Made by a program: the position numbers and the translations under genes. Below, one piece after another: positions 2,011-56,973 of a stretch of DNA of 64,000 nt. This stretch comes from Haloactinomyces albus (lineage in GTDB: Bacteria > Actinomycetota > Actinomycetes > Mycobacteriales > Pseudonocardiaceae), in NCBI RefSeq assembly GCF_031458135.1, contig NZ_JAVDXW010000001.1, positions 4,278,001 through 4,342,000 on the forward strand. Reading direction: 5' to 3'. The notes beneath the pieces are model-generated. The model was not told the origin of the DNA. It did no database searches and saw nothing but the letters and a program-made list of their open reading frames with translations. How positions within the stretch are numbered: the first letter of the stretch is position 1; the number at the start of each line of letters is the position of its first letter.

Positions 2011-2058
2011 CTGTGCTCGCACCCCCGTTTTTCCCAGCGCACCGGCCAAACGGGCGCG

Positions 2059-4766: not shown

Positions 4767-4811
4767 GCGTGCCTCGCGAGTACCGAGGCGTACCGAGAAC
4801 GGGAGGTAGGC

Positions 4812-5843: not shown

Positions 5844-5866
5844 TCTCCGAGTGCTCACCGCAGTGG

Positions 5867-5883
5867 CTCCCGGTCACCGGGAC
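5867..5883 (-). promoter_or_regulatory. Motif A copy 4
   Basis: The minus strand reads GTCCCGGTGACCGGGAG, a near-perfect palindrome. It lies in the 136-bp gap between kshB and hsaE, 97 bp before the hsaE start, which suggests that hsaE begins a separate transcription unit. Confidence 0.65.
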
Positions 5884-5979
5884 GATCGTCCTGCGAGGAC
5901 GGCACCCGTGCCACCGTGCAGTTACGCAACGCCGACCGCCCTCGTTGTGGCGCGGTCGACGATCACGAGAGGCCAGGAA

Positions 5980-6765: not shown

Positions 6766-6776
6766 GGGATGGCGCA

Positions 6777-7691: not shown

Positions 7692-7703
7692 GAGGGGAGT
7701 TCC

Positions 7704-8723: not shown

Positions 8724-8731
8724 GACACAGC

Positions 8732-9916: not shown

Positions 9917-9960
9917 TCCGATCCCACTGTGCAGGCACGCAACATGAGGAAGGAAGAACC

Positions 9961-34646: not shown

Positions 34647-34660
34647 TATGATAATGATTA
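34647..34660 (+). promoter_or_regulatory. Motif C copy 1, before the TRAP genes
   Basis: TATGATAATGATTA lies 103 bp before dctP. It matches the copy at the gntR promoter (44395-44408) at 13 of 14 positions, which suggests that the GntR protein controls the transporter. Confidence 0.6.
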
Positions 34661-35962: not shown

Positions 35963-36010
35963 CGGGTTTCCCGCCATAAATCCGGGTCCTCTGCGTGGAA
36001 GGAGTCGAGT

Positions 36011-40848: not shown

Positions 40849-42009
40849 TCACCGAATGATGGTCGAATCGATGGGGATTCCGTCCGGAACCGTCCCGGCG
40901 TCGATGGCCTTTCGTGCCTCGATCATCCGCCTTGGCTGGTCGATGCTGAGATGCGCGGTGAGCTTGCCGTCGGTGTCGAGCCAGGCGGCTGCCCATTTCT
41001 CGGTGTCGTCGCCGCGAACGAGGACGGTGTCCGTGGGCGTGTGGTGGCCGACGTACTGGAGCTTGTGGCCGAACTGATCGCTCCAGAAGTAGGGAACGGG
41101 GTCGTGTACGGGCAATTCCTCCGATGGACCGGCAAGAACCGTTCCCGCGACGGTCTCCGCTGCAGCGCGTGCATCATCCCAGTGCTCGACGCGCAGGCGT
41201 GCGTTCCAGCGCGGTGACCACCGGGCCGCGACATCTCCGAGAGCATGGACGCCGGGCTGTGATGTCCGCAGGTGCTCGTCGACGAGCACGCCGCGCTCCA
41301 GGGCCACTCCCGACCCCTCGAGCCAGGAGCTCTCCGGACGCACGCCGATTCCGGTGACGACCACATCCGCGTCCAGGTGCTCACCACCGAGCAGATGCAC
41401 TCCGTGCTCGGTGATCTCTTCCACCTCGACGCCCAGACGTAGATCCACCTCGGACCACCATGGCCGGAGCAATTCGGCGATCTCCGAACCGAGCGCGAGC
41501 TCGAACGGGGCGCGCCCTTGTTCCACGCAGGTCACCGAGCAGCCCTGCTTCAACGCTGCGGTGGCGATTTCGGCACTGATCCAGCTGGCCCCGGCCAGCA
41601 CCACGCGTCGGCCGGGCCGGAGTTCCGCCCGGAGTGCGGCAGCATCCTCGCAGGTCCGCACCGTGAACTGGCGCCCAGATCCGGGGAGTCGTGCGGGGAA
41701 GGCTCCGGTCGCAATGACGAGTGCGTCATAGGCCAACTCGCCGCCGGTGGTCTGCACGATCCGTGCCTGCGGATCCAGGCCGGTGGCGCTCGTGCCGAGT
41801 CGCACATCCACCGACAGAGCATCGAAGTCGGTGCGCAAAGTCGTGTCGTGTTCCCCGGCCAGTACGGCCTTGGTCAGCGGGGGGCGGTCGTAGGGCGCAT
41901 ACCGCTCGGAGCCGAGCATGATCAGCTCACCCGCATACCCCTTCGAGCGCAATTGCTCGCACGTCCTTGTCGCGGCCAGCCCACCGCCTGCGATGACGAT
42001 CCGGTCCAT
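40849..42009 (-). CDS. NAD(P)H:ferredoxin reductase (FAD; P450 electron transfer)
   Basis: The 386-aa pyridine nucleotide-disulphide oxidoreductase-type flavoprotein has an N-terminal FAD motif (IVIAGGGLAATRTCEQLR), PYDRPPLTK, the T-G-A motif (LVIATGAFPARLPG), an NAD-binding G-A-S-W-I-S-A-E core and the second FAD motif GVHALGDVA. The C-terminal domain ends as in the rhodocoxin/putidaredoxin reductase family. It should pass electrons from NAD(P)H to the ferredoxin at 43394 for the P450. It lies 36 bp after the P450 gene. Confidence 0.9.
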   Translation of the reverse strand: MDRIVIAGGGLAATRTCEQLRSKGYAGELIMLGSERYAPYDRPPLTKAVLAGEHDTTLRTDFDALSVDVRLGTSATGLDPQARIVQTTGGELAYDALVIATGAFPARLPGSGRQFTVRTCEDAAALRAELRPGRRVVLAGASWISAEIATAALKQGCSVTCVEQGRAPFELALGSEIAELLRPWWSEVDLRLGVEVEEITEHGVHLLGGEHLDADVVVTGIGVRPESSWLEGSGVALERGVLVDEHLRTSQPGVHALGDVAARWSPRWNARLRVEHWDDARAAAETVAGTVLAGPSEELPVHDPVPYFWSDQFGHKLQYVGHHTPTDTVLVRGDDTEKWAAAWLDTDGKLTAHLSIDQPRRMIEARKAIDAGTVPDGIPIDSTIIR

Positions 42010-42045: not shown

Positions 42046-43290
42046 TCAGCGGTGCTGCGAATCGGACAACAGGCGCTTTCCGGGAGTGAACCGTGCCGGG
42101 ATGCGGACGTAACCCATGTTGGTGCCCTGGTGCGGATAGCGTTGCAACGCATCGAAGTCCACGGTGTAGTCGGGCATGCGGGTCAGCACCGAGGACAGCA
42201 GTGTCTTGGCCATCAGCCTGCCGAGATGGGAGCCGGCACAGCGGTGGATGCCGACCCCGAACGCCGTGTGCCGGTTCGGCCACCGGTCGATGTCGATGTC
42301 GTCGGGATTGTCGAACTGTCCCTCGTCGCGATTGGCCGAGGACCACGACAACAGCACCCGGTCGCCTTCCTGCATCGGGCAACCCCGGAACTCGGTGTCC
42401 TCGGTGACCGTCCTGGCCAGTGCCTGCGTCGGTGAGAAGTAGCGCAGGAACTCCTCCACGGCCCGGTCGAGCAGGCTCGGGTCGTCGATCAGACGCCGGC
42501 GCACATCGGTGTGCCGGGCGAGCCACACCAGGGTCTGGCTCACCAGCGACGCCGTCGTGCCGACCCCGCCTGCGATCAGCAGTTCGACGATGGAGAACAC
42601 CTCGTCGTCGGTGATCGACCGCTCGTCGACCTCCTGGGCGACCAGGTAGCTGATGACGTCGTCCTGCGGATCTGCTCGCCGGGCGGCGATCGTCTGCCAC
42701 ATCTGTTCGGACAGGTAAGGGAGGTCGACCTGGGTGGCCTGGGTGTACTCCTCGCTGCCCGGCACCGCGGCCAGCACCGCATGATGGGCCCTGGAGTAGC
42801 GCTTCCAGTCCTCGATCGGAAGTCCCAGCCAATCGATGGTGACCAGCGCGGGCACGCCGATGACGGAGGTGAGGTCGCACTCGCCGCTTTCGATGACGCT
42901 GTCGATGAACGCCGTGACGTGATGCTCCACCATCCCCCGCATCTGCTCGACCGCGGCAGGCGATGTTATGCGATTGACAATCTTGCGGTACTTCCGAAAG
43001 TTCGGCGGATCGACTTCGATGGGGATGTGGTAGTGCATCGGTGTTTTGGGGATGACCACGGACAGGCCCTCCCCGCCGGAGGAGTTGCGTTCCGAGGAGA
43101 ACACGTCGTCGTTGCGGGCGGCTTCGAACACGCTCTCGTAGTCGGCCAGGACCCAGTATCCGCCGTGAGCTTCGGTCCAGCCCAACCCGTGGCTCTTTCG
43201 CAGGGCGCGGTACGAGGCGACGGGATCCTCCGAGTGCTCTTGCGAGTTGTGGTCGAAGTGGATCACGGGGCAGCGCTGCTCGCCGGTCAT
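42046..43290 (-). CDS. Cytochrome P450
   Basis: The 414-aa soluble bacterial P450 has the I-helix oxygen-activation segment AGGVGTTAS (about residue 245), E-F-L-R-Y as the ExxR motif, and the heme loop FGVGIHRCAGSHLGR with the heme ligand Cys351. The IEVDPPNFRKYRKIV segment is like class I P450s that act on terpenoids and other small acids (CYP101/CYP111-like), but no subfamily can be assigned. It heads a six-gene operon and is divergent from its probable ferredoxin, with motif C between them. Confidence 0.93.
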   Translation of the reverse strand: MTGEQRCPVIHFDHNSQEHSEDPVASYRALRKSHGLGWTEAHGGYWVLADYESVFEAARNDDVFSSERNSSGGEGLSVVIPKTPMHYHIPIEVDPPNFRKYRKIVNRITSPAAVEQMRGMVEHHVTAFIDSVIESGECDLTSVIGVPALVTIDWLGLPIEDWKRYSRAHHAVLAAVPGSEEYTQATQVDLPYLSEQMWQTIAARRADPQDDVISYLVAQEVDERSITDDEVFSIVELLIAGGVGTTASLVSQTLVWLARHTDVRRRLIDDPSLLDRAVEEFLRYFSPTQALARTVTEDTEFRGCPMQEGDRVLLSWSSANRDEGQFDNPDDIDIDRWPNRHTAFGVGIHRCAGSHLGRLMAKTLLSSVLTRMPDYTVDFDALQRYPHQGTNMGYVRIPARFTPGKRLLSDSQHR

Positions 43291-43324: not shown

Positions 43325-43338
43325 AGTGATAATGGTTA
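43325..43338 (+). promoter_or_regulatory. Motif C copy 2, P450/ferredoxin promoter
   Basis: AGTGATAATGGTTA followed by TACTAG lies midway between the divergent P450 and ferredoxin starts (35 and 56 bp). The position suits direct blockage of both promoters. Confidence 0.6.
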
Positions 43339-43393: not shown

Positions 43394-43585
43394 ATGCGTG
43401 TTCAGGTCGATGCCGGTCAGTGTCAGGGACATGGGCTGTGCCAGATGACCTCTCCCGAAGTGTTCGCCCTGCGGGACGAGGACGGACATGCCTACCCACT
43501 TCACGAGGAGGTCGGTTCGGACCTCGCCGAGGCGGCGCGCAGCGGCGCGGACGCCTGTCCCGAACGGGCGATCAGCGTCGAATGA
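43394..43585 (+). CDS. P450-type 3Fe-4S/4Fe-4S ferredoxin
   Basis: The 63-aa ferredoxin has C10-x2-H13-x2-C16 and a later Cys55-Pro, the pattern of single-cluster ferredoxins that serve actinobacterial P450s, in which the second cysteine position is a non-cysteine (here His). It starts after AAGGAGG and is divergent from the P450. It would accept electrons from the 40849 reductase. The next gene is convergent, 27 bp away. Confidence 0.9.
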   Translation: MRVQVDAGQCQGHGLCQMTSPEVFALRDEDGHAYPLHEEVGSDLAEAARSGADACPERAISVE

Positions 43586-43612: not shown

Positions 43613-44353
43613 TCAGCGCGGCGTGCTGTCCCAGTCGATGACCTGGGTGAGTACCTCGGGGTACTTGCGCTGAGCATAGCGGGTGTAGGCATCGATGTGC
43701 TCCCGCATGTGCCGTTCCGACTCCTGCGGGTCCCGCTTGCTCAGCGCCTCGAGGATCTCCTGGTGGGCTGTGATGATCGCCGACCGTCGGTGAGTCGGGT
43801 AGTCGATGCCGATGACGGTGCCGTCCATGATCCCCAGCAGCGAGTCGAGCATGTAGCCGAACAAGGTGTTTCCCGAGGACCACGCGATGGTGTCGTGGAA
43901 CCGCTTGTTGGCCTCCAGGAACACGGACTGGTCGTCGAGATTGTCGCGCATCTGGTCGATGGTGGAGCCGAGTTCCCGGAGTGACTCGTCGGTGATCCGC
44001 TCTGCAGCGAGGCAGCTGATCATGGGTTCGAGTGCCGACCGGACTTCGACGATGGTCTGAAATGGGGCCTTTTTCATCTGCATGAGCAGCACGACCGTGC
44101 TGGCGAGGTGGGTGGCATCGGGGTCGAGGAGGACGGGGCCTCCCCGCGGGCCCGGCTTGAGGGCGATCACCCCTTGGAACTCCAGCAGCCGCAGTGCTTC
44201 GCGGAGTGTGCCGCGGCCGACGTCGTAGTTCTCCAGCATCGTTCGCTCGGGGGGAAGCAGGTCCCCCGGGGCGAGTAGATCGCGTCCGATGTCGCGCACG
44301 ATGCGCTGCGCGACGAACACGGCGGTCTTTGTCCGCTTGTTGCTTGTGCTCAT
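43613..44353 (-). CDS. GntR-family regulator, FadR/FCD subgroup
   Basis: The 246-aa protein has an N-terminal winged helix (about 10-75; GDLLPPERTMLENYDVGRGT then LREALRLLEFQGVI) and an all-helical FCD ligand-binding domain (about 95-225) with the metal/ligand histidine segment FHDTIAWSSGN and MREHIDAY. FCD regulators sense carboxylic acids or acyl-CoAs. A perfect palindrome ATTATCATGATAAT lies 37 bp upstream of its start at 44353, overlapping motif C copy 3, so autoregulation is likely. Motif C copies at five promoters suggest it controls the whole second locus. Confidence 0.92.
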   Translation of the reverse strand: MSTSNKRTKTAVFVAQRIVRDIGRDLLAPGDLLPPERTMLENYDVGRGTLREALRLLEFQGVIALKPGPRGGPVLLDPDATHLASTVVLLMQMKKAPFQTIVEVRSALEPMISCLAAERITDESLRELGSTIDQMRDNLDDQSVFLEANKRFHDTIAWSSGNTLFGYMLDSLLGIMDGTVIGIDYPTHRRSAIITAHQEILEALSKRDPQESERHMREHIDAYTRYAQRKYPEVLTQVIDWDSTPR

Positions 44354-44389: not shown

Positions 44390-44408
44390 ATTATCATGAT
44401 AATGATTA
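44390..44408. promoter_or_regulatory. Motif C copy 3 with a perfect palindrome, gntR/enoyl-CoA hydratase promoter
   Basis: ATTATCATGATAAT (44390-44403) is a perfect 14-bp palindrome; it overlaps CATGATAATGATTA (44395-44408), the best consensus motif C copy. Starts lie 36 bp (gntR) and 67 bp (crotonase) away. Confidence 0.7.
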
Positions 44409-44475: not shown

Positions 44476-45240
44476 ATGGCAGATATCCTGACCGAACGAA
44501 AAGGCGACACCCTGTGGATCCGCCTGAACCGCCCCGAGCGCCGCAATGCCTTCGATCCCGCCATGTCCGGCGCCATCACCGAGGCTTTGCAGGACGCCGC
44601 TTCCATGCGGACGGTGGTCATCACCGGATCGGACGGCAGCTTCTGCGCCGGTGGTTCGCTGCAGCAGTTGGGCACGCCGACGACCGGGGAGATGCGTGGG
44701 CTCTACCAGTCGTCGTTGCAGATGCTCGATGCCATCCGTACCTGTCCACGGCCGGTGATCGCCGCGGTGAACGGTGCCGCTGCCGGCGGTGGCAACGAGC
44801 TCGTGATGGCCTGTGATCTGGCGATCGCCGCCCGCTCGGCCACCTTCGGGCAAACCGGACCGAAGGTGGGCAGTGCTCCGGTCACCGGCGCCACCAATGT
44901 TCTGGGCGTGCAGATCGGGGAGAAGCGGGCCAAGGAGATGGCGATGCTCTGCCGGCGGTACTCGGCCGAGCAGGCCGAGGACATCGGCCTGATCAACGAG
45001 GTGGTCGAGGACGATCAGCTCGTCGACTCCGTCACGGCGTGGTGCGATGAGTTGGCGATGCTCAGCCCGCGGTACCTGGAGATCACCAAGATCAGCTCCA
45101 ACATCTGGTGGAACTCCGCGCGGGACTCCTTCAGCTCGGGGCTGGGCATGCTCGTGCAGGCTGTGGGAAGCGCCGATATGGTCGAGGGGGCCACCGCTTT
45201 CCTGGAAAAGCGGCGCCCCGGTTTCCCCGAGCCGGAGTGA
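44476..45240 (+). CDS. MenB/BadI-like crotonase (candidate ring-cleaving beta-ketoacyl-CoA hydrolase)
   Basis: The 254-aa crotonase has the oxyanion segments SFCAGGSL and AAGGGNELVMACDLAIA. The later QTGPKVGSAP, K-R-A-K-E-M-A-M-L-C-R-R-Y-S-A-E-Q-A and C-terminal FLEKRRPGF follow the MenB/BadI branch (naphthoyl-CoA synthase, 2-ketocyclohexanecarboxyl-CoA hydrolase) rather than common enoyl-CoA hydratases. In that branch the enzymes make or break a C-C bond in a ring. As menaquinone genes are absent here, ring opening is the better guess. AAGGAGAAGG precedes ATG 44476. Confidence 0.82.
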   Translation: MADILTERKGDTLWIRLNRPERRNAFDPAMSGAITEALQDAASMRTVVITGSDGSFCAGGSLQQLGTPTTGEMRGLYQSSLQMLDAIRTCPRPVIAAVNGAAAGGGNELVMACDLAIAARSATFGQTGPKVGSAPVTGATNVLGVQIGEKRAKEMAMLCRRYSAEQAEDIGLINEVVEDDQLVDSVTAWCDELAMLSPRYLEITKISSNIWWNSARDSFSSGLGMLVQAVGSADMVEGATAFLEKRRPGFPEPE

Positions 45241-45243
45241 GCC

Positions 45244-46023
45244 TCACTTCCCTTGCCAGCGGGGGGCTCGCTTCTCCTTGAACGCGAGCGCCCCCTCGCG
45301 GGCGTCGGCAGAAGAGCGGACCGGCTCGCTGATCTTCTGCTGACGCCCGAAGGCCTCATCGGAGGGCCAATCGCCTGAGGCGCGGATGATCTCCTTGGTC
45401 GCGCGTACGGCCAGTGGACCGTTGCAGGCAACGGTGCGAGCAAGTTCCAGCGCGGTGTCGCGAGCCTGCCCGGCGGCGGTGAGACGATTGATCAGATGCG
45501 CCTCGTGCGCACTCCGGGCGGGGATGAGCTCGCCGGTCAGCGCCCATTCCACAGCAAGGTGATAGGGCACCCGTTCGTGCAGCCGAAGCAACCCGCCACC
45601 CGCGGCAACCAGTCCGCGTTTGACCTCGGGCAGCCCGAAGACGGCTTCCTCCGAAGCGACGATCAGATCGCAGGCCAGCACGATCTCGAAACCGCCCGCG
45701 ATGGCGTGGCCCTCGACAGCGGCGATCAACGGCTTGTCCGGGGGGCGTTCGACGATTCCGGCGAATCCACGCCCGGGCACCGACGGGCGCTCGCCGGCGA
45801 GAAAGGCCTTGAGATCCATCCCCGCGCAGAACCCCTTGCCCGCACCGGTGATGATTCCGGCGACCAGGTCGCTGCGATTGTCGAGTTCGTCCATGGCCGC
45901 GGCGATGGCCTCGGCGGTCGCGCTGTTGACCGCGTTGCGGGATTCCGGCCGGTTGATGGTGACGATCTGGACACCGTCGATCTGCTCGGTCAGGACGACA
46001 GGGGTGTCGGAAGTTTCGGACAC
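45244..46023 (-). CDS. Enoyl-CoA hydratase/isomerase (crotonase)
   Basis: The 259-aa crotonase has NRPESRNAVNSATAEAI, the oxyanion motif GFCAGMDLKAFL and GGFEIVLACDLIVA, ATFGLPEV-like AVFGLPEVKRGL with the usual glutamate. It probably hydrates an enoyl-CoA in beta-oxidation. GTG 46023 is supported by AAGGAG at a 5-bp distance. It is the third gene of the thiolase-SDR-crotonase operon and is convergent with the 44476 gene, 3 bp apart. Confidence 0.87.
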   Translation of the reverse strand: MSETSDTPVVLTEQIDGVQIVTINRPESRNAVNSATAEAIAAAMDELDNRSDLVAGIITGAGKGFCAGMDLKAFLAGERPSVPGRGFAGIVERPPDKPLIAAVEGHAIAGGFEIVLACDLIVASEEAVFGLPEVKRGLVAAGGGLLRLHERVPYHLAVEWALTGELIPARSAHEAHLINRLTAAGQARDTALELARTVACNGPLAVRATKEIIRASGDWPSDEAFGRQQKISEPVRSSADAREGALAFKEKRAPRWQGK

Positions 46024-46063: not shown

Positions 46064-46828
46064 TCACTTGGGCGGCATGCGGATGGCGCCGTCGAGACGG
46101 ATGGTCTCGCCGTTGAGCATGGCGTTGTCGATGATGTGCTGGGCCAGCTCGGCGAACTCCTCGGGTTTGCCCATCCGCTGCGGATGCGGAACCTGCTTGG
46201 CGAGGCCGTCGCGGATCTCATCGGAGAACCGAGCCAGAATCGGGGTGTCGAAGGTTCCCGGAGCGATCGAGCAGACCCGGACCATTTTGCGCGCCAGGTC
46301 CCGGGCCGCGACGAGGGTCATGCCGACCACGCCCGACTTGGCCGAGGCATACGGGATCTGGCCGATCTGACCTTCCCAGGCCGCCACCGAGGCGGTCAGG
46401 ACACAGACGCCGCGTTCGCCCTCGAGCGGCTCGTTGGTCACCATCCGCGCGGCGGCCATGCGCACCGTGTTGAACGTGCCGATCAGGTTCGTGCGCACGA
46501 TGGATTCGTAATCGTCGAGCGATCCGGGAGAACCGTCCTTCTCGACCACCCGCACCGTCCCACCACGTCCGGCACAGTGCACCAGGGCACGGATCGGTCC
46601 GGCGGATTCGGCGAGATCGAGCGCTTGGCCGACGGCGTCGGGGTCGGTGACATCGGCCGGAGCGAAGTGCGCGAGATCCCCCAGTTTCTCGGCCACGCGC
46701 TCGCCGTCCGAGCTCGGCAGGTCGACGATCACGGTGGGCACTTCGCGGTCGATGAATCGCTGCACGGTGGCCAGCCCCAGTCCCGAGGCTCCGCCGGTGA
46801 CCACGGCCGTTGCATTGTTCAACTGCAT
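46064..46828 (-). CDS. HSD10-like 3-hydroxyacyl-CoA dehydrogenase (SDR)
   Basis: The 254-aa SDR has TGGASGLGLATVQRF, H-C-A-G-R-G-G-T-V-R-V, a serine in TASVAAWEGQIGQ, YASAK and MTLVAARDLA. The G-Q-I-G-Q-x-x-Y-x-A-S-K-x-G-x-x-G-M-T segment is that of HSD17B10/type II 3-hydroxyacyl-CoA dehydrogenases, which oxidise 2-methyl-3-hydroxyacyl-CoA and related branched substrates. It lies between thiolase and crotonase genes, giving a compact beta-oxidation set. Confidence 0.88.
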   Translation of the reverse strand: MQLNNATAVVTGGASGLGLATVQRFIDREVPTVIVDLPSSDGERVAEKLGDLAHFAPADVTDPDAVGQALDLAESAGPIRALVHCAGRGGTVRVVEKDGSPGSLDDYESIVRTNLIGTFNTVRMAAARMVTNEPLEGERGVCVLTASVAAWEGQIGQIPYASAKSGVVGMTLVAARDLARKMVRVCSIAPGTFDTPILARFSDEIRDGLAKQVPHPQRMGKPEEFAELAQHIIDNAMLNGETIRLDGAIRMPPK

Positions 46829-46877: not shown

Positions 46878-48071
46878 TCAGTCGGTCAGGGATTCGATGA
46901 TCGTGGCGTTGGCCATGCCGCCGGCCTCGCACATCGTCTGCAGCCCGTAGCGTCCACCGGTGCGGGAGAGGTGGTGGATCATCGTGGTCATGAGTCGGCA
47001 GCCCGAGGCGCCGAGCGGATGCCCCAGTGCGATGGCGCCGCCAACGGGATTGAGCCTTGCCTCCTCGATGCCGAACTCCCGCTGCCAGGCCAAGGGAACC
47101 GGCGCGAAGGCCTCGTTGACCTCGAAGGTGCTGATGTCATCGCTTGCCAGCCCGGAACGTGCGAGCACCTTGTGGGTCGCCGGGATCGGACCGGTGAGCA
47201 TCAGCGTCGGATCGTCACCCACCACGGCCGAGGACACGACCGCGGCGCGGGGACGCAGACCCAGTGCCCTCGCTCGCTGCTCGGACATGATGAGCAGGGC
47301 ACTGGCACCGTCGGTGATCTGCGAGGAATTGCCCGCACTGATCACTCCGGGCAGTTCGGGGAAGCGTTCGCGGTAGGAGTTCAGGTCGAACGCGGGGTCG
47401 AGTCGGCCGAGACGTTCGGCCGTGGTGCCCTCGCGGATGGTCTCGTCGGCCGACACCGGGACCGGACCGTGCTCACCCGGCGCGGGGATGGGCACGATCT
47501 CGTCGTCGAAATCTCCCGCCGCACGAGCGTGTGCCGCGCGTTGGTGCGAGCGAGCCGAGTAGTCGTCGAGCTCACCACGGGTCAGCTTCCACTTCGCCGC
47601 CACCAGCTCGGCCGAGATTCCCTGCGGGACGAGGTCGGGAAACCGGCTGCGCGCTCCCTCGCCGTGCGGTTCCGCGCCCATCCGCGCGGAACCCATCGGA
47701 ACCCGGCTCATCGATTCCACACCTGCGGCGATGGTGATGTCGTAGTGACCGGACAGGATGCCCTGGACGGCGAAATCGACCGCCTGTTGTCCGGACCCGC
47801 ACTTGCGCTCGATGGTCACCGAGGGCACGTGCACGGGAAATCCCGCGGCGAGCACGGCCTGCCTTCCCGGTGTTGCGGACTGCTCGCCGGCCTGCCCGAC
47901 GCAGCCCACGAGCACGTCGTCGATCGTTGCCGGGTCGAGATCGTTCCGGGATACCAGCTGTGTCAGGACGTGAGCGAGCAGGTCGACCGGGTGCACACCT
48001 GCCAGCGCCCCCGCTGCCTTGCCGCGACCCATGGGTGAGCGGACGGCGTCGACGATGACGGCACGGTCCAT
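46878..48071 (-). CDS. Acetyl-CoA acetyltransferase-type thiolase
   Basis: The 397-aa thiolase has the nucleophile Cys91 in IERKCGSGQQ, His351 in GHPLGASG and the base Cys381 in MCEAGGMA, all intact. It cleaves a 3-ketoacyl-CoA with CoA. ATG 48071 is preceded by GGAG; an in-frame ATG 24 bp upstream falls near motif C copy 4. It heads the operon with the HSD10-like SDR and a crotonase, and is divergent from an acyl-CoA dehydrogenase gene. Confidence 0.92.
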   Translation of the reverse strand: MDRAVIVDAVRSPMGRGKAAGALAGVHPVDLLAHVLTQLVSRNDLDPATIDDVLVGCVGQAGEQSATPGRQAVLAAGFPVHVPSVTIERKCGSGQQAVDFAVQGILSGHYDITIAAGVESMSRVPMGSARMGAEPHGEGARSRFPDLVPQGISAELVAAKWKLTRGELDDYSARSHQRAAHARAAGDFDDEIVPIPAPGEHGPVPVSADETIREGTTAERLGRLDPAFDLNSYRERFPELPGVISAGNSSQITDGASALLIMSEQRARALGLRPRAAVVSSAVVGDDPTLMLTGPIPATHKVLARSGLASDDISTFEVNEAFAPVPLAWQREFGIEEARLNPVGGAIALGHPLGASGCRLMTTMIHHLSRTGGRYGLQTMCEAGGMANATIIESLTD

Positions 48072-48109: not shown

Positions 48110-48161
48110 TCTTGCACCTGTCCGGCGGATCGAGCAAACTTGACCGCACGTACATCGATAC

Positions 48162-48175
48162 TATGATGATGATTA
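48162..48175 (+). promoter_or_regulatory. Motif C copy 5
   Basis: TATGATGATGATTA followed by CTAGG lies 17 bp before the acyl-CoA dehydrogenase GTG, in the thiolase/ACAD divergent promoter. It differs from copy 1 at one of 14 positions. Confidence 0.6.
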
Positions 48176-48192
48176 CTAGGAACGGAGAGCTC

Positions 48193-49356
48193 GTGCAACA
48201 GGTAATCGACGCTGATGAGCAGCGGGCGCTCGAAGAGGTCGCCGCCAAGGTCGCCAAGGAACGATATGCGCCATACGACGAGGAGTGGGACCGCTCTCGC
48301 ATGGCGTTTTCGAAGCAGGAACGTCGCTATCTGGGCGAGCTCGGCTTTCTCGGTATCGCGTTGCCGGAGCAGTACGGCGGTGGGGGAGCACCCCTGCAGC
48401 ACGCGCTGGGAGTCATCGAGGCGCTGGCCAAGGAATGCCGCCCGGCTGCCTTCCAGGTTTTCGAGGCCAACACCGGACCGGCCCAGGTGGTGGCCAGGTT
48501 CGGCACCGAGCAGCAGCGGGAGCGTTTCCTGCCGCCGATCATCAGCGGGGACGCGACCCTGGCCGTGGCCATCTCCGAGCCGGATGCCGGTTCGGCGGCC
48601 ACGGACATGAAGACCAAGGCGACCGTATCCGGGGACTCGCTGGTCCTCAACGGCTCGAAACGCTGGATCTCCAACGGTGGCGAAGCCGACTACTACCTGG
48701 TCTACGCGCGGATGAACGATGAACCGGGCTCCAAGGGCATCGGTGCCGTTCTCGTCGAGGCCGACCGCGACGGGGTGAGTTTCGGCCAGCGCGAGAAGCT
48801 GATGGGCTTCCGCGGGATTCCGTCCGCGGACATCCTGTTCGATGATGTGGTGGTGCCTGCCGACAACCTCGTCGTGGGACCTGGCCGGTTTCGGGAGCTG
48901 TTCGGCGCATTCTCCATCGAGCGACTGGGCAATGCCACGATGAGCCTGGCGATCGGTCAGGCCGCGCTGGACCGGACCAAGCACTACGTGCAGGAGCGCG
49001 AGCAGTTCGGCAAGCCACTCGTGGAGTTCCAGAGTGTGCAGATGAACCTGGCGGACATGGTGCTGCAGGTGGAAGCCGCGCGACTGCTGATCCGCCGTGC
49101 GGCGGCGAATGTCGGTGATGAACTGCCGGATTCGCTGGAGGTCTCACTGGCCAAGTGCACCGCGAACGAAATGGCCAAGCGGGTCACCGACCTGGCCATG
49201 CAGCTGCACGGCGGTAATGGCTATACCGAGGAATACGGCTTGGAGCGTCTGCATCGGGACGCGCACGGTTGGGCGCTGGCCGGCGGCACTCCGAGTATGC
49301 AGCGCATCCGCATCGTCTCGGAACTGCTCGGGCGATCGTTCGATCAGCGCCGCTGA
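48193..49356 (+). CDS. Acyl-CoA dehydrogenase (helix-G glutamate type)
   Basis: The 387-aa flavoprotein has LPEQYGGGGAPLQHALG, the FAD/substrate segment ISEPDAGSAATDM, the helix-G base Glu243 in FSIERLGNA, R-E-Q-F-G-K-P-L-V-E-F-Q and QLHGGNGYTEEYGLERLHRDA. The usual C-terminal Y-E-G-T is A-G-G-T here, so the base is in the isovaleryl-CoA dehydrogenase position, which often goes with branched substrates. GTG 48193 follows CGGAGAG. It heads a nine-gene operon that runs to 58247. Confidence 0.9.
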   Translation: MQQVIDADEQRALEEVAAKVAKERYAPYDEEWDRSRMAFSKQERRYLGELGFLGIALPEQYGGGGAPLQHALGVIEALAKECRPAAFQVFEANTGPAQVVARFGTEQQRERFLPPIISGDATLAVAISEPDAGSAATDMKTKATVSGDSLVLNGSKRWISNGGEADYYLVYARMNDEPGSKGIGAVLVEADRDGVSFGQREKLMGFRGIPSADILFDDVVVPADNLVVGPGRFRELFGAFSIERLGNATMSLAIGQAALDRTKHYVQEREQFGKPLVEFQSVQMNLADMVLQVEAARLLIRRAAANVGDELPDSLEVSLAKCTANEMAKRVTDLAMQLHGGNGYTEEYGLERLHRDAHGWALAGGTPSMQRIRIVSELLGRSFDQRR

Positions 49357-50199: not shown

Positions 50200-51270
50200 G
50201 TGGTACAAGTCGGTCTGTTGCTCAGTGACGTCCCGAAGTCGGTGACGCCTGATCAGCAATTCAAGGATGTGCTGCGCATCGTCGAGGCGGCCCAGCGCAA
50301 CGGGTTCACCTACATCGCGATCGGCCAGCACTTTCTCTACGGTGATCTGCGGTGGCTGCAGCCGGTTCCGCTGCTGGCGCGGTTGGCCGCCGAGGTCGGT
50401 CCGGAGGTCAAGCTCGTCACCCAGATCATGATCGCGCCGCTCTACCATCCGGTGCTGCTCGCCGAGGAGATCGCCACGCTCGACGTGGTCACCGAGGGCA
50501 GGTTGGTCTTCGGTGCAGGGCTGGGATACCGCCCCGAGGAGTTCGACTACCTCGACGTGCCGTTCAAGCAGCGCGCCTCGCGGATGGACGAGTCGCTGGA
50601 GCTGATGAAGAAACTGTGGACCGAGGACACGGTGAATCACCAGGGCAAGTACTGGCAGCTCGAGGATGTCGCACCGCACCTCAAACCCGTGCAGTCCCCG
50701 CACCCGCCGATCTGGATCGGCGCGCACAGCATGGCAGGCACCCGACGGGCGGGCCGCTTCGGTGATGCTTATGCCTGTCCGCCGGAAACACCGCCGCACG
50801 AGGTGGCAGAGCGACTGACTGTGGTGCAGGAAGGGTTTGCCGCGCGCGGCAAGGAGTTCGGACCGCAGCCACTGCGCCGCAACGTCATGGTGGCCGACAC
50901 TCGCGAGGAGGCCATCACCGAATACGCGAGGGTCGCCCAGGGCAGGTATCTGACGTATGCCCGCAAGGGGCTGGACGTCATGGCCGACACCGATCTGGAG
51001 AACGAGTTCGCACAAGCCGTTTCCGGACATGCGGTGATCGGGACACCCGACGACGTGGTCGGACAGTTGACGAAGCTGGCCACCGATCTCCCCGTCGACC
51101 CGCTGCTCGTCCGGCCGCAGTGGCCGACCATGGACGGCGACGAGACCATCGCCGCGATCAACCGGCTCGGTCGCGAAGTCGTGCCCTCCTTGCTGCCGAT
51201 CACGCCGCGCCGGGACATTCCCGCCCCCGAACTCTTCTCGGAGCCTGCCGTAGGAGGTACGCAGCCATGA
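50200..51270 (+). CDS. Luciferase-like flavin-dependent monooxygenase (LLM class)
   Basis: The 356-aa protein is a bacterial luciferase-type TIM barrel: FTYIAIGQHFLYGDLRWLQP, KLVTQIMIAPLYHPVLLAEEIATLDVVTEGRL, F-G-A-G-L-G-Y-R-P-E-E-F and P-P-I-W-I-G-A-H-S. Relatives use FMNH2 or F420 and oxidise a carbonyl or hydrocarbon; a Baeyer-Villiger-type or hydroxylation step would fit a pathway that opens rings. No flavin reductase gene is adjacent. It starts at GTG 50200 after GGGGAGG and overlaps the ligase gene by ATGA. Confidence 0.83.
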   Translation: MVQVGLLLSDVPKSVTPDQQFKDVLRIVEAAQRNGFTYIAIGQHFLYGDLRWLQPVPLLARLAAEVGPEVKLVTQIMIAPLYHPVLLAEEIATLDVVTEGRLVFGAGLGYRPEEFDYLDVPFKQRASRMDESLELMKKLWTEDTVNHQGKYWQLEDVAPHLKPVQSPHPPIWIGAHSMAGTRRAGRFGDAYACPPETPPHEVAERLTVVQEGFAARGKEFGPQPLRRNVMVADTREEAITEYARVAQGRYLTYARKGLDVMADTDLENEFAQAVSGHAVIGTPDDVVGQLTKLATDLPVDPLLVRPQWPTMDGDETIAAINRLGREVVPSLLPITPRRDIPAPELFSEPAVGGTQP

Positions 51271-52910
51271 CCCAGGTGTACCGCGATCTCGTGCCGAGCT
51301 TCGAGGATCCGGATGACTGGACCCTCGCCACGGTATTGCGCTCGCATGCCGCCACTCGCCCCGACGCGACATTCCTGATGGCACCGGAGGAGGGGCTGGA
51401 GTGGACCTACGCGGAGATGCTGTCCTCGGCGCAGCGGGTCGCAGGCACGCTGACCAAGTCCGGGGCCGAGCCCGGGGACCGCGTGGTCATCATGGCCGCC
51501 AACTCCTCGAGACTGGTGCGAACCTGGTTCGGAACAGCCGTCGGCGGCATGGTCGAGGTACCGATCAACACCAACTACGAGGGGGAGTTCCTGCGTCACC
51601 AAGTCGCCACGGTGGCGCCTCGGTGGGCGGTCATCGATGATGCCTTCGCGGAACGCATGGTGGCCATCGCCGACGACGTACGCGGTATCGACAAGTTCTG
51701 GGTGATCGACACCGGGCGCGGTGCCGAGGCGGTCGAGTTGCTCCGCGCCCACGGTTGGGCCGCAGAGCCGTGGGAGGATCTGGAGGAAGGGCCGGTACTC
51801 GATCTGCCCGATCCGCAGCCGCAGGACCTGGGCGCCATCTTCTTCACCTCCGGTACCACGGGTCCGTCCAAGGGCGTGGCGATGCCGCAGGCGCAGCTGT
51901 ACTTCTTCGCCCAGGTGGTCGTTTCCCTGACCCGGCTGACTCCGGAGGACACCTATCTGACGACGACACCGCTGTTTCACGGCAATGCTCAATTCATGGC
52001 GGTGTTTCCCGCGCTGGTCGCCGGTGCTCGCGCGGTGGTGCGATCGAAGTTCAGCGCCAGCAAGTGGATCGATCACGTGCGTGAGTCCGGTGTGACGGTG
52101 ACGAACTTCGTCGGCGTGATGATGGATTTCGCCTGGAAGCAGCCTCCGCGCCCGGACGACCGCGACAACGAACTCCGGTGCATCTATGCCGCCCCCACTG
52201 CCAGTACCATCGCTGATTCCTTCAAGGAGCGCTACGGTATCGAGGCTTTCGTCGACGCATTCGGTCTGACGGAGACGTGCGCGCCGATCCTGTCGCCTTA
52301 TGGCGTCGAGCGTCCAGCGGGGGCGGCAGGATTGCAGGCTGCCGATTGGTTCGATATCCGCCTCGTCGATCCGGACACCGACCGTGAGGTGCCCGTCGGA
52401 GAGGTGGGAGAACTGGTGGTGCGGCCGAAACAGCCGTGGACCTGCAGCATGGGCTACTACGGCATGCCGGAGAAGACGCTGGAAGTGTGGCGCAATCTCT
52501 GGTTCCACACCGGCGACGCTCTCCGGCGTGATGAACACGGTTGGTATTACTTCGTCGATCGCTACAAGGACGCGCTGCGCCGACGCGGCGAGAACATCAG
52601 CTCCTACGAGATCGAGGAAGTGATTCTGGCGCACCCGGCCGTGGCCGAATGCGCGGTGATCGGCGTGCCGAGCGAGGTGGAAGCCGGTGAGGACGAGGTC
52701 ATGGCCGTGATCGTTGCTCCGAGCCCGGTCGATCCGGGTGAGATATTCACCTGGTGCCAGGGCCGTATTCCCGAATTCGCGATTCCACGGTTCGCGCGGT
52801 TCGTGGACGCACTGCCGAAGACACCTTCCGAGAAGGTGCGCAAGGCCGCACTGCGCGAGGTCGGCGCCTCTTCCGACACGCACGATCGCCTTCGCGAGTC
52901 GGTCCGCTGA
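51267..52910 (+). CDS. Acyl-CoA synthetase (AMP-forming), CaiC-like
   Basis: The 547-aa ligase has IFFTSGTTGPSKGVAM, P-L-F-H-G-N-A-Q, DAFGLTETCAP, F-H-T-G-D-A-L and RYKDALRRRGENISSYEIEEV, with the lysine in T-P-S-E-K-V-R-K. The R-R-R-G-E-N-I-S-S-Y-E motif is typical of the CaiC/long-chain or carnitine-like CoA ligase branch. It probably activates the imported or oxidised acid. It overlaps the LLM gene by 4 bp and is followed 31 bp later by an ACAD gene. Confidence 0.88.
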   Translation: MTQVYRDLVPSFEDPDDWTLATVLRSHAATRPDATFLMAPEEGLEWTYAEMLSSAQRVAGTLTKSGAEPGDRVVIMAANSSRLVRTWFGTAVGGMVEVPINTNYEGEFLRHQVATVAPRWAVIDDAFAERMVAIADDVRGIDKFWVIDTGRGAEAVELLRAHGWAAEPWEDLEEGPVLDLPDPQPQDLGAIFFTSGTTGPSKGVAMPQAQLYFFAQVVVSLTRLTPEDTYLTTTPLFHGNAQFMAVFPALVAGARAVVRSKFSASKWIDHVRESGVTVTNFVGVMMDFAWKQPPRPDDRDNELRCIYAAPTASTIADSFKERYGIEAFVDAFGLTETCAPILSPYGVERPAGAAGLQAADWFDIRLVDPDTDREVPVGEVGELVVRPKQPWTCSMGYYGMPEKTLEVWRNLWFHTGDALRRDEHGWYYFVDRYKDALRRRGENISSYEIEEVILAHPAVAECAVIGVPSEVEAGEDEVMAVIVAPSPVDPGEIFTWCQGRIPEFAIPRFARFVDALPKTPSEKVRKAALREVGASSDTHDRLRESVR

Positions 52911-52941: not shown

Positions 52942-54108
52942 ATGGATTTCAGCACCGATACGCTGCACGATGATATTCGCGCGGCGGTGCGAGCACTGTG
53001 CTCGGACTTTTCCGACGACTACTGGGCCGAGCACGATCGGACCCAGGAATTCCCGTGGGATTTCTACAACGGGGTGGTCAAGGGAGGTTGGCTCGGCCTG
53101 ACCGTGCCGGAGCAGTACGGCGGTGGTGGGCAGGGTGTGACCGAGGCCGCGATCGTGGAGCAGGAGATCGCCGCATCCGGGGCCGGGATGAACGGCTGCA
53201 GCGCCGTGCACATCGGCATCTTCGGTTTCGAGCCGATCATCAAGCACGGCAGCGAGGAGCTCAAGCAACGGTTCCTGCCCCGGCTGGCCGAAGGTGATCT
53301 GCACGTGTCGTTCGCGGTGACCGAGCCGGATGCCGGTACGGATACCACGAACATCGCCACGTTCGCGCGCAAGGTCGAGGGCGGATGGTCGATCTCCGGC
53401 AAGAAGGTGTGGATCACCAAGGCGCAGGAGGCCGAGCGACTGCTGATCCTGTGCCGCACCACACCTCGCGACGAGGCGCCGAAGAAGACCGCAGGCATGA
53501 CTCTGTTCTTCGCCCCGATGGATCGCGACCGGGTCACGGTCCGCAAGATCCCGAAGATGGGCCGTAACGCGGTGGACACCAACGAGCTGTTCATCGACGA
53601 GCTGTTCGTACCCGATTCCGATGTGGTCGGTGAGGTCGGGCACGGATTCCGCGCGATTCTGGCAGGCCTCAATGCCGAGCGCGTCATCTCCGCCAACGCG
53701 GCGATCGGGATCGGCCGGGCCGCGCTGCGCAGGGCCGCCGGATACGCCAAGGAGCGCACCGTGTTCGGCAGGGCCATCGGGCGGAATCAGGGCATCGCCT
53801 TCCCACTGGCGCAAGCTCAGATCCAGTTGGACGCGGCGGACCTGATGTGCCGCCGCGCAGCATGGCTGATCGACAACGACCATCCGGCAGGAAAGGACGC
53901 CAACGAGGCGAAATACCTCGCGGCGGAGGCGGGCTTCTTCGCCGCGGACGCGGCGCTGAGCGCACACGGTGGTTACGGCTACTCGCAGGAGTACCACATC
54001 GAACGGTACTTCCGGGAATCCCGGTTGATGCGGATCGCGCCGATCAGCCAGGAAATGGTGCTGAACTACATGGCCGAGCATGTGCTCGAACTCCCGAGGA
54101 GCTACTGA
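52942..54108 (+). CDS. Acyl-CoA dehydrogenase (helix-G glutamate type)
   Basis: The 388-aa protein has VPEQYGGGGQGVTEAA, VTEPDAGTDTTNI, KIPKMGRNAVDT, the base Glu246 in LNAERVISA, R-T-V-F-G-R-A-I-G-R-N-Q-G and AHGGYGYSQEYHIERYFRESR. At the C-terminal Y-E-G-T position it has A-P-I-S, so catalysis relies on the helix-G glutamate. This form is common for acyl-CoAs with bulky or cyclic groups. It overlaps the CitE-like gene by one base (TGATG). Confidence 0.9.
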   Translation: MDFSTDTLHDDIRAAVRALCSDFSDDYWAEHDRTQEFPWDFYNGVVKGGWLGLTVPEQYGGGGQGVTEAAIVEQEIAASGAGMNGCSAVHIGIFGFEPIIKHGSEELKQRFLPRLAEGDLHVSFAVTEPDAGTDTTNIATFARKVEGGWSISGKKVWITKAQEAERLLILCRTTPRDEAPKKTAGMTLFFAPMDRDRVTVRKIPKMGRNAVDTNELFIDELFVPDSDVVGEVGHGFRAILAGLNAERVISANAAIGIGRAALRRAAGYAKERTVFGRAIGRNQGIAFPLAQAQIQLDAADLMCRRAAWLIDNDHPAGKDANEAKYLAAEAGFFAADAALSAHGGYGYSQEYHIERYFRESRLMRIAPISQEMVLNYMAEHVLELPRSY

Positions 54109-55001
54109 TGCAGCCCTACCGATCCGTGCTGTTCCTGCCGGGGCATCGGCCGTCCTGGGTGGACAAAGCCTTACGTGCCGGGCCTGATGCGATCGTGCTG
54201 GACCTGGAGGATTCCGTGCCGGAATCCGAAAAGGTGGGCGCGCGAGCCACTGTTGCCTCGTCCATCGAGCGGCTGGCCGCCGAGCAAACGGCCCCGGACG
54301 TGCTCGTACGGGTCAATCCCCTGGACACCAAGCTGACCGGGGGAGACCTGGAGCAGGTGATGGTACCGGGACTGACGGGCATCTTCGCGCCGAAGATCGA
54401 GCAGGCCACCGACGTGCTGCGCTACGATGCGCTGCTCGACCACTTCGAGACACGCAACGGGGTGTCGGGGCTGGAGTACATCGTCCCGGTGGAGACCGTG
54501 CGCGCGATCCACGAATGCCGCGAGATTGCCGGTGCCTCACCGAGAGTGGGAGCGATGATCGGCCCCACCGCCGAGCACGCCGATATAGCTCGAGCCGTGG
54601 GATACGAATGGTCTCCGGAAGGCACCGAGACGCTGTATCACCGCAGCCGGATTCTGCTGGCATGCCGTGAGGCGGGAATCCACGCGTTGACCGGACTCTG
54701 GGAGAAGCTGTCCGATACGGATGGTCTTGCGGAGTTCGCACGGCGTGGTAGGCAGCTCGGGTTCCGCGGCATGATCGCCATCCACCCGAGCCATGTGGCG
54801 ACGATCAACGAGGCGTTCACGCCATCCGATGAGGACGTCGAGTTCTACCGGGGGATCGTCGACACCTACGAGAAGGCCACCGCCGACGGCACCGGCGCAG
54901 TGCGCTACCGGGGGACACACATCGACAAGGCGCACTATGACAGGGCACTCGCGTGGCTCGAACGCGCGGAGCGCATCACCGGAACGGGGAACCGCCCATG
55001 A
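54108..55001 (+). CDS. CitE-like (HpcH/HpaI family) beta-hydroxyacyl-CoA lyase
   Basis: The 297-aa protein has RSVLFLPGHRP, D-A-I-V-L-D-L-E-D-S-V with the metal-binding acid, K-I-E-Q-A-x-D-V, V-E-T-V-R-A-I and GFRGMIAIHPSHV, all of the CitE/malyl-CoA lyase group. Members cleave citramalyl-, methylmalyl- or hydroxymethylglutaryl-type CoA esters into acetyl- or propionyl-CoA and a 2-oxo acid. It overlaps the MaoC gene by 4 bp, so hydration followed by lyase cleavage is likely. Confidence 0.87.
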   Translation: MQPYRSVLFLPGHRPSWVDKALRAGPDAIVLDLEDSVPESEKVGARATVASSIERLAAEQTAPDVLVRVNPLDTKLTGGDLEQVMVPGLTGIFAPKIEQATDVLRYDALLDHFETRNGVSGLEYIVPVETVRAIHECREIAGASPRVGAMIGPTAEHADIARAVGYEWSPEGTETLYHRSRILLACREAGIHALTGLWEKLSDTDGLAEFARRGRQLGFRGMIAIHPSHVATINEAFTPSDEDVEFYRGIVDTYEKATADGTGAVRYRGTHIDKAHYDRALAWLERAERITGTGNRP

Positions 55002-55507
55002 CCATGCAAGCGACGCAAGCGACCATGCGGGGCCTGTACTTCGAGGAGTTCGAAGTCGGTGCCGAGTATCGGCACGCGCTGACCCGCACGATCACCGAGA
55101 TGGACAATGTCATGTTCACCTCGCTGACCATGAACCTGCAGCCACTGCATCTGGACGAGGAGTTCGCCAAGGAATCGGTGCACGGTGCCAGGGTGCTCAA
55201 CAGCCTGTTCACCGTCGCGCTGATCGGGGCGTTCCACGTCCCCGAACTGACCATGGGAACCACCCTGGGCAACCTCGGTTACGAAAAGATCGAGTTCCCG
55301 CACCCGGTGTTCCACGGTGACACGCTGCGTGCGGAAACCACGGTCCTGGACAAGCGAGAATCCCGTAGTCGCGACGATTCCGGAATCGTGTGGTTCGAAC
55401 ACCGTGGCTACAACCAGGACGACGTGCTCATCTGCCGCTGCCACCGCATCGGCCTGATGGCAAAGAAGCCGACGGACCCCGAGCAGAGCAAAGAAGGTGT
55501 GCGATGA
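54998..55507 (+). CDS. MaoC-like enoyl-CoA hydratase (mesaconyl-CoA hydratase-like)
   Basis: The 169-aa single hotdog protein has YFEEFEVGAEYRHALTRTITEMDNVMFTSLT, N-x-Q-P-L-H-L-D-E-E-F-A and G-N-L-G-Y-E-K-I-E-F-P. The N-L-Q-P-L-H-x-D motif carries the hydratase aspartate/histidine equivalents. Close relatives hydrate mesaconyl-type or methyl-branched enoyl-CoAs beside CitE-type lyases. It overlaps both the CitE-like and ALDH genes by 4 bp. Confidence 0.87.
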   Translation: MTMQATQATMRGLYFEEFEVGAEYRHALTRTITEMDNVMFTSLTMNLQPLHLDEEFAKESVHGARVLNSLFTVALIGAFHVPELTMGTTLGNLGYEKIEFPHPVFHGDTLRAETTVLDKRESRSRDDSGIVWFEHRGYNQDDVLICRCHRIGLMAKKPTDPEQSKEGVR

Positions 55508-56973
55508 CTTCCACAACAGGTGCCGACCGCGACTACGTGCCCGACGTGCGCACGTTGACCATCGACAACCGGCAGGTGCAGCCGGAGGGCGCAGCGTGGG
55601 ATGTGTACAACCCGGCGACCGAGCAGGTCCTCGCAACGGTGGCGGGAGCCTCGAGCAAGCAGGTCGACGATGCCGTTTCGGCCGCACGCAAGGCATTCGG
55701 TCGGTGGTCGTCGATGAGTGGGCACGAGCGCGCGGCCGCGATTCACCGATTCGCCGATGTGCTGGAGGCACGCACCGACAAGCTGCTGGCCTCGATCGTC
55801 AACGAGGTCGGCACGCCCGTCTCCCTGGCCGAGGGCTTGCAGGTCAAGCTCGGTCTGATGCATCTGCGCTGGCAGGCCGAGGCGGCGAAGAAGGACCGCA
55901 CCCTGCACCTCGGCGGCTACGACCAGCCGGTACCGACGATGAGCGACGTGACGCACTACCCGGTCGGCGTGGTCGCGGCGATCACCGGATACAACTATCC
56001 GCTGAATCTCGCCATCTTCAAGTTCGGTGCGGCCCTGGCCGCGGGCTGCACGGTGGTGCTGCTGCCCTCCCCGCGAACCCCGCTGACCACGCTGCTGTTC
56101 GGTGATCTCAGCCGGGAGGCCGACCTGCCGGACGGCGTGTTCAACGTGCTGGTCGGTGATGCCGAGGTCGGACAGCAACTGACTTCGCATCCCGGAGTGG
56201 ACAAGGTCTCGTTCACCGGGTCCGATGCGGTGGGCGCAAAGATCATGGAGCAGGCCGCGACAAACCTGAACGGCGTCACCCTCGAACTCGGAGGTAAATC
56301 CGCGAGCATCGTGCTGCCCGGCACCGATGTCGAATCGTTGGCCACCGAAACGCACCTGCGGTGGTCGCGCAACGGCGCGCAGGGCTGCGCCGCGCTGGCA
56401 CGGTTGCTGGTGCACGAGAGCCTCTACGATCGCTTTCTGGAGGCCAGTGCCGAGGGATTCGAGCAAATGCGGGTCGGTGACCCGTGGGACCCGAAGACCA
56501 ATATCGGACCGATGATCCGGCCGGACCACCGGGAGCGGGTGCAGGGGTTCATCGACGAGGCGCTCGGTGCGGGAGGCAAGGCACTGCTGTCGGTGGATCG
56601 GCCGCTGCCCGAATCCGGCTGGTACGTGAACCCGGTATTGCTGGGCAACCTGCCGCATGACGCGCGCGCGGTGCAGCAGGAGATCTTCGGACCGGTGGCG
56701 GTGATCGTGCCGTTCTCGGATACCGACGAGGCGATTCGGTTGGCGAATGACACGGCCTACGGGCTGGCGGCCAATGTCTGGTCACCCGATCTCGAGGAGG
56801 GACGCCGGGTGGCCGAGCGGCTCCGTGCCGGCACTGTGTGGATCAACGGAGGCGGGGCGATGCGCCCCGACGCGCCGTTCGGTGGTTCCGGACGTTCGGG
56901 GGTTGGCAGGGAACTCGGGGAGTGGGGGATCCATGAATACCTGGAACCCCGCCACATCCAGTGGCGTGTCTGA
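55504..56973 (+). CDS. Aldehyde dehydrogenase (NAD(P)-dependent)
   Basis: The 489-aa protein has YPVGVVAAITGYNYPLNLAI, F-T-G-S-D-A-V-G, the general base Glu261 in LELGGKSA, the nucleophile Cys295 in GAQGCAALA, and E-I-F-G-P-V-A-V-I near the end. All main ALDH residues are present. It would oxidise an aldehyde formed by the P450/SDR steps or by later cleavage. ATG 55504 overlaps the MaoC stop. Confidence 0.92.
   Translation: MTSTTGADRDYVPDVRTLTIDNRQVQPEGAAWDVYNPATEQVLATVAGASSKQVDDAVSAARKAFGRWSSMSGHERAAAIHRFADVLEARTDKLLASIVNEVGTPVSLAEGLQVKLGLMHLRWQAEAAKKDRTLHLGGYDQPVPTMSDVTHYPVGVVAAITGYNYPLNLAIFKFGAALAAGCTVVLLPSPRTPLTTLLFGDLSREADLPDGVFNVLVGDAEVGQQLTSHPGVDKVSFTGSDAVGAKIMEQAATNLNGVTLELGGKSASIVLPGTDVESLATETHLRWSRNGAQGCAALARLLVHESLYDRFLEASAEGFEQMRVGDPWDPKTNIGPMIRPDHRERVQGFIDEALGAGGKALLSVDRPLPESGWYVNPVLLGNLPHDARAVQQEIFGPVAVIVPFSDTDEAIRLANDTAYGLAANVWSPDLEEGRRVAERLRAGTVWINGGGAMRPDAPFGGSGRSGVGRELGEWGIHEYLEPRHIQWRV

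Follow-up and report, generated by a model that had tools for sequence, protein, structure and literature searches.

A MenB/BadI-related crotonase family and its probable catabolic pathway in Haloactinomyces albus

Asp-163 of MenB is strictly conserved and catalytically essential, and in type I MenB a bicarbonate occupies the position of the base of other crotonases; the excerpt of PMC3637252 used here adds that no further bicarbonate-using crotonase was known at that time. In hydration, Glu144 acts as the base and Glu164 as the acid, according to an excerpt of PMC3660561. EchA20 is presented as a ring-opening enzyme, and the gene order echA20-ipdA is given in Table 1, in the excerpted text of PMC5380842. 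EchA20 is a HIEC-CoA hydrolase and BadI a 2-ketocyclohexanecarboxyl-CoA hydrolase.

The crotonase of the H. albus window (the whole stretch of 64,000 nucleotides analysed) resembles each of these enzymes in part. It shares with MenB the fold, the QTG-P-K-VGS and CR-Y segments and Ser133; unlike MenB, it lacks the catalytic Asp and the equivalents of Tyr258 and Trp, keeps Glu108, and reaches 161.5 bits with the menB profile TIGR01929, about half of the required 342.7. It falls on the same branch as BadI and has a catabolic context with a CoA ligase and acyl-CoA dehydrogenases, whereas it scores 170.4 bits against a badI cut-off of 467.6 (NCBIfam) and is missing the Asp of the BadI-like rows L162, L192 and L194, all rows compared being under that cut-off. 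EchA20 is likewise a crotonase of actinobacterial ring catabolism, but it stands outside the 50-row branch described below, and its candidate in this genome is a separate gene with another active-site segment and 23% identity. With the enoyl-CoA hydratases (ECH/EchA8), the fold and the general-base Glu are common, while Glu164 is replaced by Gly in all 24 rows of the clade. Our literature searches listed no title or abstract on this crotonase family or gene cluster. We consider the enzyme to be a crotonase with a catabolic role, from an uncharacterised family near the MenB/BadI root, probably acting in a GntR-controlled, P450-started pathway that degrades an oxygenated compound of alicyclic or terpenoid-like type (probability about 0.55).

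The gene and its placement among crotonases

The reading frame runs from an ATG to one stop and encodes 254 amino acids with no internal stop. A longer frame from the GTG at 44194 was rejected as the start, since the three nearest relatives (76-83% identity) have their ATG at the same position and a purine-rich stretch lies upstream of the ATG at 44476. The match to Pfam ECH_1 (192 bits) and the crotonase fold place the product in the crotonase superfamily; the gene is genuine and encodes an enzyme of an uncharacterised family. The segments QTGPKVGS (residues 126-133) and CRRYSAEQA (residues 159-167), from which the preliminary description had argued for ring-forming or ring-opening chemistry, are present and common with MenB and BadI. 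The step from these segments to ring chemistry is nevertheless unsupported, because the MenB/BadI-like Asp is missing, the Glu is kept, neither the badI nor the menB score comes near its cut-off and a separate EchA20 candidate exists.

In our careful tree of 68 rows, the 24 family rows form one clade (support 100/100), whose 26-row sister group (92/82) comprises the 21 MenB/BadI rows, themselves grouped at 100/99, and five basal rows. The union of the clade with the basal and MenB/BadI rows contains 50 rows at 100/95, which bears out the placement on the MenB/BadI branch made in the preliminary description. The main groups of a quick tree of 109 rows were the same. The BadI-like rows were L162 (430.6 badI bits), L192 and L194, all under the cut-off, with L161 left out. 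In approximately unbiased (AU) tests, grouping the clade with MenB/BadI alone was not rejected (p = 0.274), which leaves more than one exact branching order compatible with the sequences. Grouping it with EchA20, from which it is apart in both trees, was only marginally disfavoured (p = 0.055), as was grouping it with two-Glu hydratases (p = 0.057), which were represented by three rows. A further test gave p = 0.045 for a group labelled hydratases, most rows of which carry Ser, Asp or Asn at 108 and Phe or Tyr at 128, so that it is no set of two-Glu hydratases. Judged by these trees, the family is well bounded, probably diverged close to the MenB/BadI root and falls in none of MenB, BadI and EchA20; the phylogeny against MenB, BadI and steroid ring-opening crotonases that the preliminary description had proposed places it beside MenB/BadI and apart from EchA20, the alternatives being only marginally disfavoured.

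One crotonase, L165 (225.8 badI bits, Glu108, without the Asp), resembled a wider sister group of the clade. This candidate was rejected: all 20 fetched loci that match it have Val108 and Asp135 and are of MenB/BadI type (394 genomes of the class searched, 123 with a match; L192-L194 are among the 21 rows). L165 (1501-2271), L038 (1501-2226) and L069, L071 and L079 are rare MenB-stem crotonases in which Glu108 is kept and Pro stands for the MenB Asp. Separately, six loci from Nocardia, Pseudonocardia, Amycolatopsis and Rhodococcus (L063, L065, L066, L067, L087 and L110) carry one or two MenB-branch crotonases with several others adjacent, groups that possibly serve alicyclic acid catabolism.

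A match at 1e-45 or better was found in 18 of 298 genomes of the order, 14 of them, our own included, at 63-100% identity (the G184 match spans 176 residues only) and four at 41-43%. Among the best 80 loci listed from named genomes, 20 lie at 60-83% identity and the remaining 60 do not exceed 40%; the former include Prauserella, Rhodococcus, Geodermatophilus, Streptomyces, Nocardioides, Thermobifida fusca, Pseudonocardia dioxanivorans and three gammaproteobacterial MAGs. No BadI over the cut-off occurs in 246 genomes of the phylum or in the 14 genomes behind the study loci, where L161 comes nearest (456.7 bits).

The genome of H. albus holds 19 crotonase matches. One, at C1:2699824-2700663, is menB with 422.8 bits, over the cut-off and 1.6 Mb away on the same contig, which rules the window crotonase out as the menaquinone enzyme; as the preliminary description had it, no men gene was found among the window genes scanned. 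A CoA-transferase pair (genome 4225676-4227157) includes an ipdA relative at 4226498-4227157, with 306.7 bits to 6co6_A, which we take to be IpdAB. The crotonase that adjoins this ipdA relative on the same strand (4227190-4228005) lacks the MenB Asp; it matches the echA20-ipdA order of Table 1 in the excerpt of PMC5380842 and is our EchA20 candidate. We rejected EchA20 as the identity of the window crotonase, the ipdA-linked crotonase sitting elsewhere in the genome. The similarity of the motifs and the presence of steroid-type genes on the window's left side would speak for a menaquinone or steroid D-ring enzyme, a highly improbable reading given these two separate genes. The steroid-type ring A/B genes at window positions 1397-10881 encode relatives of HsaA, HsaB and HsaC/biphenyl-diol dioxygenase, a KstD-like protein, a hydratase and an aldolase; the HsaA, HsaB and HsaC matches are all under curated cut-offs, which marks a divergent set.

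Active site and fold

Residue counts were taken from a 65-row alignment, on which the numbering across families also rests. We take Glu108, Gly128 and Pro135 of the window crotonase to stand at the positions of Glu144 and Glu164 of enoyl-CoA hydratase and of Asp-163 of E. coli MenB, respectively. Glu108 is present in 24/24 clade rows and 5/5 basal rows as opposed to 0/21 MenB/BadI rows, whereas Asp135 occurs in 21/21 MenB/BadI rows and in none of the 29 clade and basal rows; position 135 is Pro or Gly throughout the clade. Gly128 is common to 24/24 clade rows and 20/21 MenB/BadI rows, and Ser133 is kept in every clade row. Position 156 is Ala, Ser or Thr in the clade (Trp in 0/24, against 20/21 MenB/BadI rows), and position 230 is Val or Ile (Tyr in 0/24, against only 12/21). 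The MenB/BadI row with Asp at 128 is the MenB of this genome, which makes that enzyme type II by the rule given in the excerpt of PMC3637252. The two-Glu set of the hydratases is thus incomplete in the window crotonase, as Glu144 unaccompanied by Glu164 is not what a normal hydratase has. The residues point to a MenB-type pocket that would have kept the hydratase base and lost, or never gained, the MenB acid residue.

A 10-sequence AlphaFold model had low confidence (pLDDT 71.8, with low values at 127-159) and was replaced by one built on 65 sequences (mean pLDDT 94.0, pTM 0.91). The best solved fold match is 3p5m, a generic hydratase/isomerase (Z 34.9 over 244 residues, VIA-align); MenB 3t88 aligns with Z 31.3 over 213 residues, the alignment ending at residue 216 of the monomer model. 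All 1000 chains in the fold search have Z of at least 8, so the search gives no separation of crotonase families.

The full-length match to 3p5m, together with the general-base Glu and the marginal AU values, is consistent with an ordinary enoyl-CoA hydratase/isomerase that has only surface segments in common with MenB. Additionally, the enzyme exceeds no cut-off among the best 25 of 73 NCBIfam families, where oxepin_alt (181.9 bits, cut-off 300), PRK07511 and EchA19 score highest. Against this stand the Gly at the Glu164 place in the whole clade, the 68- and 109-row trees and the best PDB sequence matches, which are MenB chains (144 bits). We regard an ordinary hydratase as unlikely.

Operator-like sites and gene neighbourhood

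The crotonase is separated by 122 bp from a divergent FadR-type GntR gene (Table 1), the probable regulator next to it in the preliminary description. The gene downstream is on the opposite strand, so that the crotonase is the sole gene of its own unit. The preliminary description took this single-gene unit from the gntR divergent promoter as a frequent mark of a signature enzyme; the single-gene unit stands, but operator-like sites of one kind also lie before other genes.

We trained a 19-base motif on 10 segments from upstream regions in other genomes, which were picked by eye once they had been compared with the window's site (L057c yielded no good site). The window maximum of this motif is at 44389 with 24.3 bits, compared with at most 19.0 in ten Markov-shuffled windows. 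Since the motif also scores AT-rich gaps (33702, 61347, 15828), only sites of the 13-mer ATGATAATGATTA are listed. With up to three mismatches, the 13-mer occurs 13 times in the window, some sites overlapping, against an expectation of 1.5 and no more than 4 in any of 100 shuffles; with up to two, nine times in the genome versus two for a reversed control. Seven of these nine sites lie within 45 kb (4312648 to 4357684) and precede the TRAP, P450/ferredoxin, gntR/crotonase, thiolase/dehydrogenase and ABC (two sites) genes and a SnoaL-type gene; the four in the window had been seen when the 13-mer was chosen, the three beyond it had not. The GntR protein would bind this shared operator-like site. 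Since such a site also stands before the P450/ferredoxin, thiolase/dehydrogenase and TRAP genes, the crotonase is apparently part of a regulon. A second FadR-type GntR regulator, another candidate for binding the shared site, is encoded in the same island (L178 3875-4543; genome 4343874-4344542).

Table 1. Features at and around the crotonase gene, with window coordinates and counts of loci with a counterpart (crotonase orthologues vs controls).
Feature	Position	Strand	Basis or occurrence
Crotonase, clade sister to MenB/BadI group; Glu108, Gln126-Thr127-Gly128, Ser133, Pro135	44476..45240	+	sequence, tree, model
Perfectly palindromic site ATTATCATGATAAT in the gntR-crotonase gap, probable operator of GntR	44390..44403		
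Operator-like site before P450/ferredoxin	43326..43338	+	2 mismatches
Operator-like site before TRAP transporter genes	34648..34660	+	
Operator-like site between thiolase and acyl-CoA dehydrogenase	48163..48175	+	1 mismatch
FadR-type GntR regulator (GntR + FCD domains), divergent	43613..44353	-	5/31 vs 0/60
Single-cluster ferredoxin	43394..43585	+	8/31 vs 0/60
Cytochrome P450; best solved relatives P450cin, CYP125	42046..43290	-	9/31 vs 0/60
Ferredoxin reductase	40849..42009	-	7/31 vs 0/60
TRAP transporter genes DctP, DctQ, DctM	~34940-38033		
Second crotonase, ordinary hydratase type, over PRK08252 cut-off	45244..46023	-	8/31 vs 0/60
Short-chain dehydrogenase (SDR)	46064..46828	-	12/31 vs 0/60
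Thiolase, start estimated, ORF to 48302	46878..48071	-	11/31 vs 1/60
Acyl-CoA dehydrogenase, start estimated	48160..49356	+	11/31 vs 0/60
SDR	at 49363		2/31 vs 0/60
Luciferase-like monooxygenase (LLM)	50200..51270	+	2/31 vs 0/60
Acyl-CoA ligase	51267..52910	+	25/31 vs 0/60
Acyl-CoA dehydrogenase	52942..54108	+	16/31 vs 3/60
CitE/HpcH-type acyl-CoA lyase, malyl-CoA lyase relatives	54108..55001	+	20/31 vs 0/60
MaoC hydratase, mesaconyl-CoA hydratase relatives	54998..55507	+	15/31 vs 0/60
Aldehyde dehydrogenase (ALDH)	55537..56973	+	7/31 vs 0/60
Class III CoA-transferase (CaiB)	57060..58247	+	10/31 vs 0/60

Genes were called with a custom script, which missed the thiolase and an SDR at 38167 among others. 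Neighbours were counted in 31 orthologue loci and 60 control loci of other crotonases, using ORFs of at least 55 aa, 50% identity and 60% cover; L125 and L130, which duplicate L042 and L051, were not counted. The 31 loci are non-independent, several coming from one genus or family, and end at about 10 kb or at contig ends. The ligase gene lies directly 3' of the crotonase in 12 of 30 mapped loci, and the CitE gene is next in eight of these 12. The TRAP and MFS genes have a counterpart in 0/31 orthologue loci and 0/60 controls, which argues against a fixed role in the pathway. These counts support the membership of the window crotonase in a conserved catabolic gene set and, with the shared operator-like sites, agree with its earlier description as the enzyme of a pathway.

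Beyond the window, the island continues to about 4374 kb of the genome. It includes an amidohydrolase, a branched-chain-type ABC transporter, an NDMA-type alcohol dehydrogenase (over its cut-off), a FAD oxidoreductase related to KstD (under every cut-off among the matches listed) and another ligase, overlapped by a two-Glu crotonase (L179 13718-14512; genome 4369717-4370511), relatives of which are also found close to several of the window crotonase's orthologues. A Baeyer-Villiger monooxygenase (BVMO; L179 8013-9653, genome 4364012-4365649), with PAMO as its best match among solved proteins (678 bits), lies about 41 kb from the window crotonase and adjoins a lipase-type alpha/beta-hydrolase. 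A BVMO of 55-69% identity (own copy apart) was found within 50 kb of the orthologue on the same contig in 11 of 20 family-bearing genomes, our own included; these 20 are the bearers accessible to the analysis and no random draw, with 12 further bearers outside the count. In the other nine, no BVMO of at least 55% lies within 50 kb: a 55% copy sits on another contig in G085 and G549, and G548 carries one of 50% at a distance of 34 kb; the copies of G241 (50%) and G546 (43%) lie elsewhere, G204 has one of 38%, and G263, G544 and G545 gave no BVMO match at 1e-60. Of 10 same-family genomes without the crotonase, one has a BVMO above 50% (58%).

Proposed reaction and its significance

The chemistry, the substrate and the pairing of regulator and site described here are those that we infer. 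The pathway would start with the P450, and probably the BVMO, acting on an oxygenated alicyclic or terpenoid-like compound; the CoA ligase would make the thioesters, and the beta-oxidation enzymes, the MaoC hydratase and the CitE-type lyase would carry out the finishing steps. The resemblance of the P450 to P450cin, together with the BVMO and esterase resemblances, hints weakly at a terpenoid-type substrate. The CitE and MaoC relatives, of malyl-/beta-methylmalyl-CoA and mesaconyl-CoA type, suggest a methyl-branched C4/C5 dicarboxylate end. In the window crotonase, the oxyanion hole would hold the thioester enolate and Glu108 would activate water for attack on C-beta, while a substrate carboxylate or an exogenous anion could fill the vacant Glu164 place (Gly128), the role of bicarbonate in type I MenB.

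The retention of Glu108 somewhat favours hydration, and hydration of a branched or cyclic enoyl-CoA is a plausible outcome that we put forward tentatively. Two two-Glu crotonases and a MaoC hydratase are already present in the cluster, which may make plain hydration redundant and favours a special reaction; this redundancy and the alicyclic-ketone flavour of the island favour ring opening. Hydrolytic C-C or ring opening of a cyclic beta-ketoacyl-CoA is a second possible outcome, which we regard with some doubt. In its BadI-like form, water would attack the ring ketone and a retro-Claisen step would yield a dicarboxyl mono-CoA. Such a reaction would fit the sister position of the clade to MenB/BadI, the neighbouring ligase, hydratase, SDR and pair of acyl-CoA dehydrogenases, which make up the set required for building a cyclic beta-ketoacyl-CoA, and the island's BVMO, P450 and NDMA-type alcohol dehydrogenase, which suggest alicyclic ketones. 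Moreover, EchA20 opens a ring (excerpt of PMC5380842), and since the MenB Asp is absent from the EchA20 candidate of this genome, ring opening need not use this residue. Nevertheless, the MenB/BadI Asp, Trp156 and Tyr230 are missing throughout the clade and the badI score is far below the cut-off, and a BadI-like hydrolase is therefore doubtful. An improbable further idea is that the family represents a second crotonase lineage in which bicarbonate or a substrate carboxylate would take the Glu164 place while the hydratase Glu is kept, an intermediate between hydratases and MenB/BadI that would catalyse a new terpenoid-type step linked to the PAMO-like BVMO.

The probably catabolic crotonase described here is of an ordinary enzyme class, within which its family is new and well bounded. 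If it were only a hydratase, the gain would be a corrected annotation. As it stands, it provides a delimited and testable crotonase family located where the enzymes that form or open rings diverge from hydratases, and the regulator, the operator-like sites and the conserved pathway genes are handles for finding the substrate. The pathway may also show PAMO-like Baeyer-Villiger monooxygenases at work in nature.
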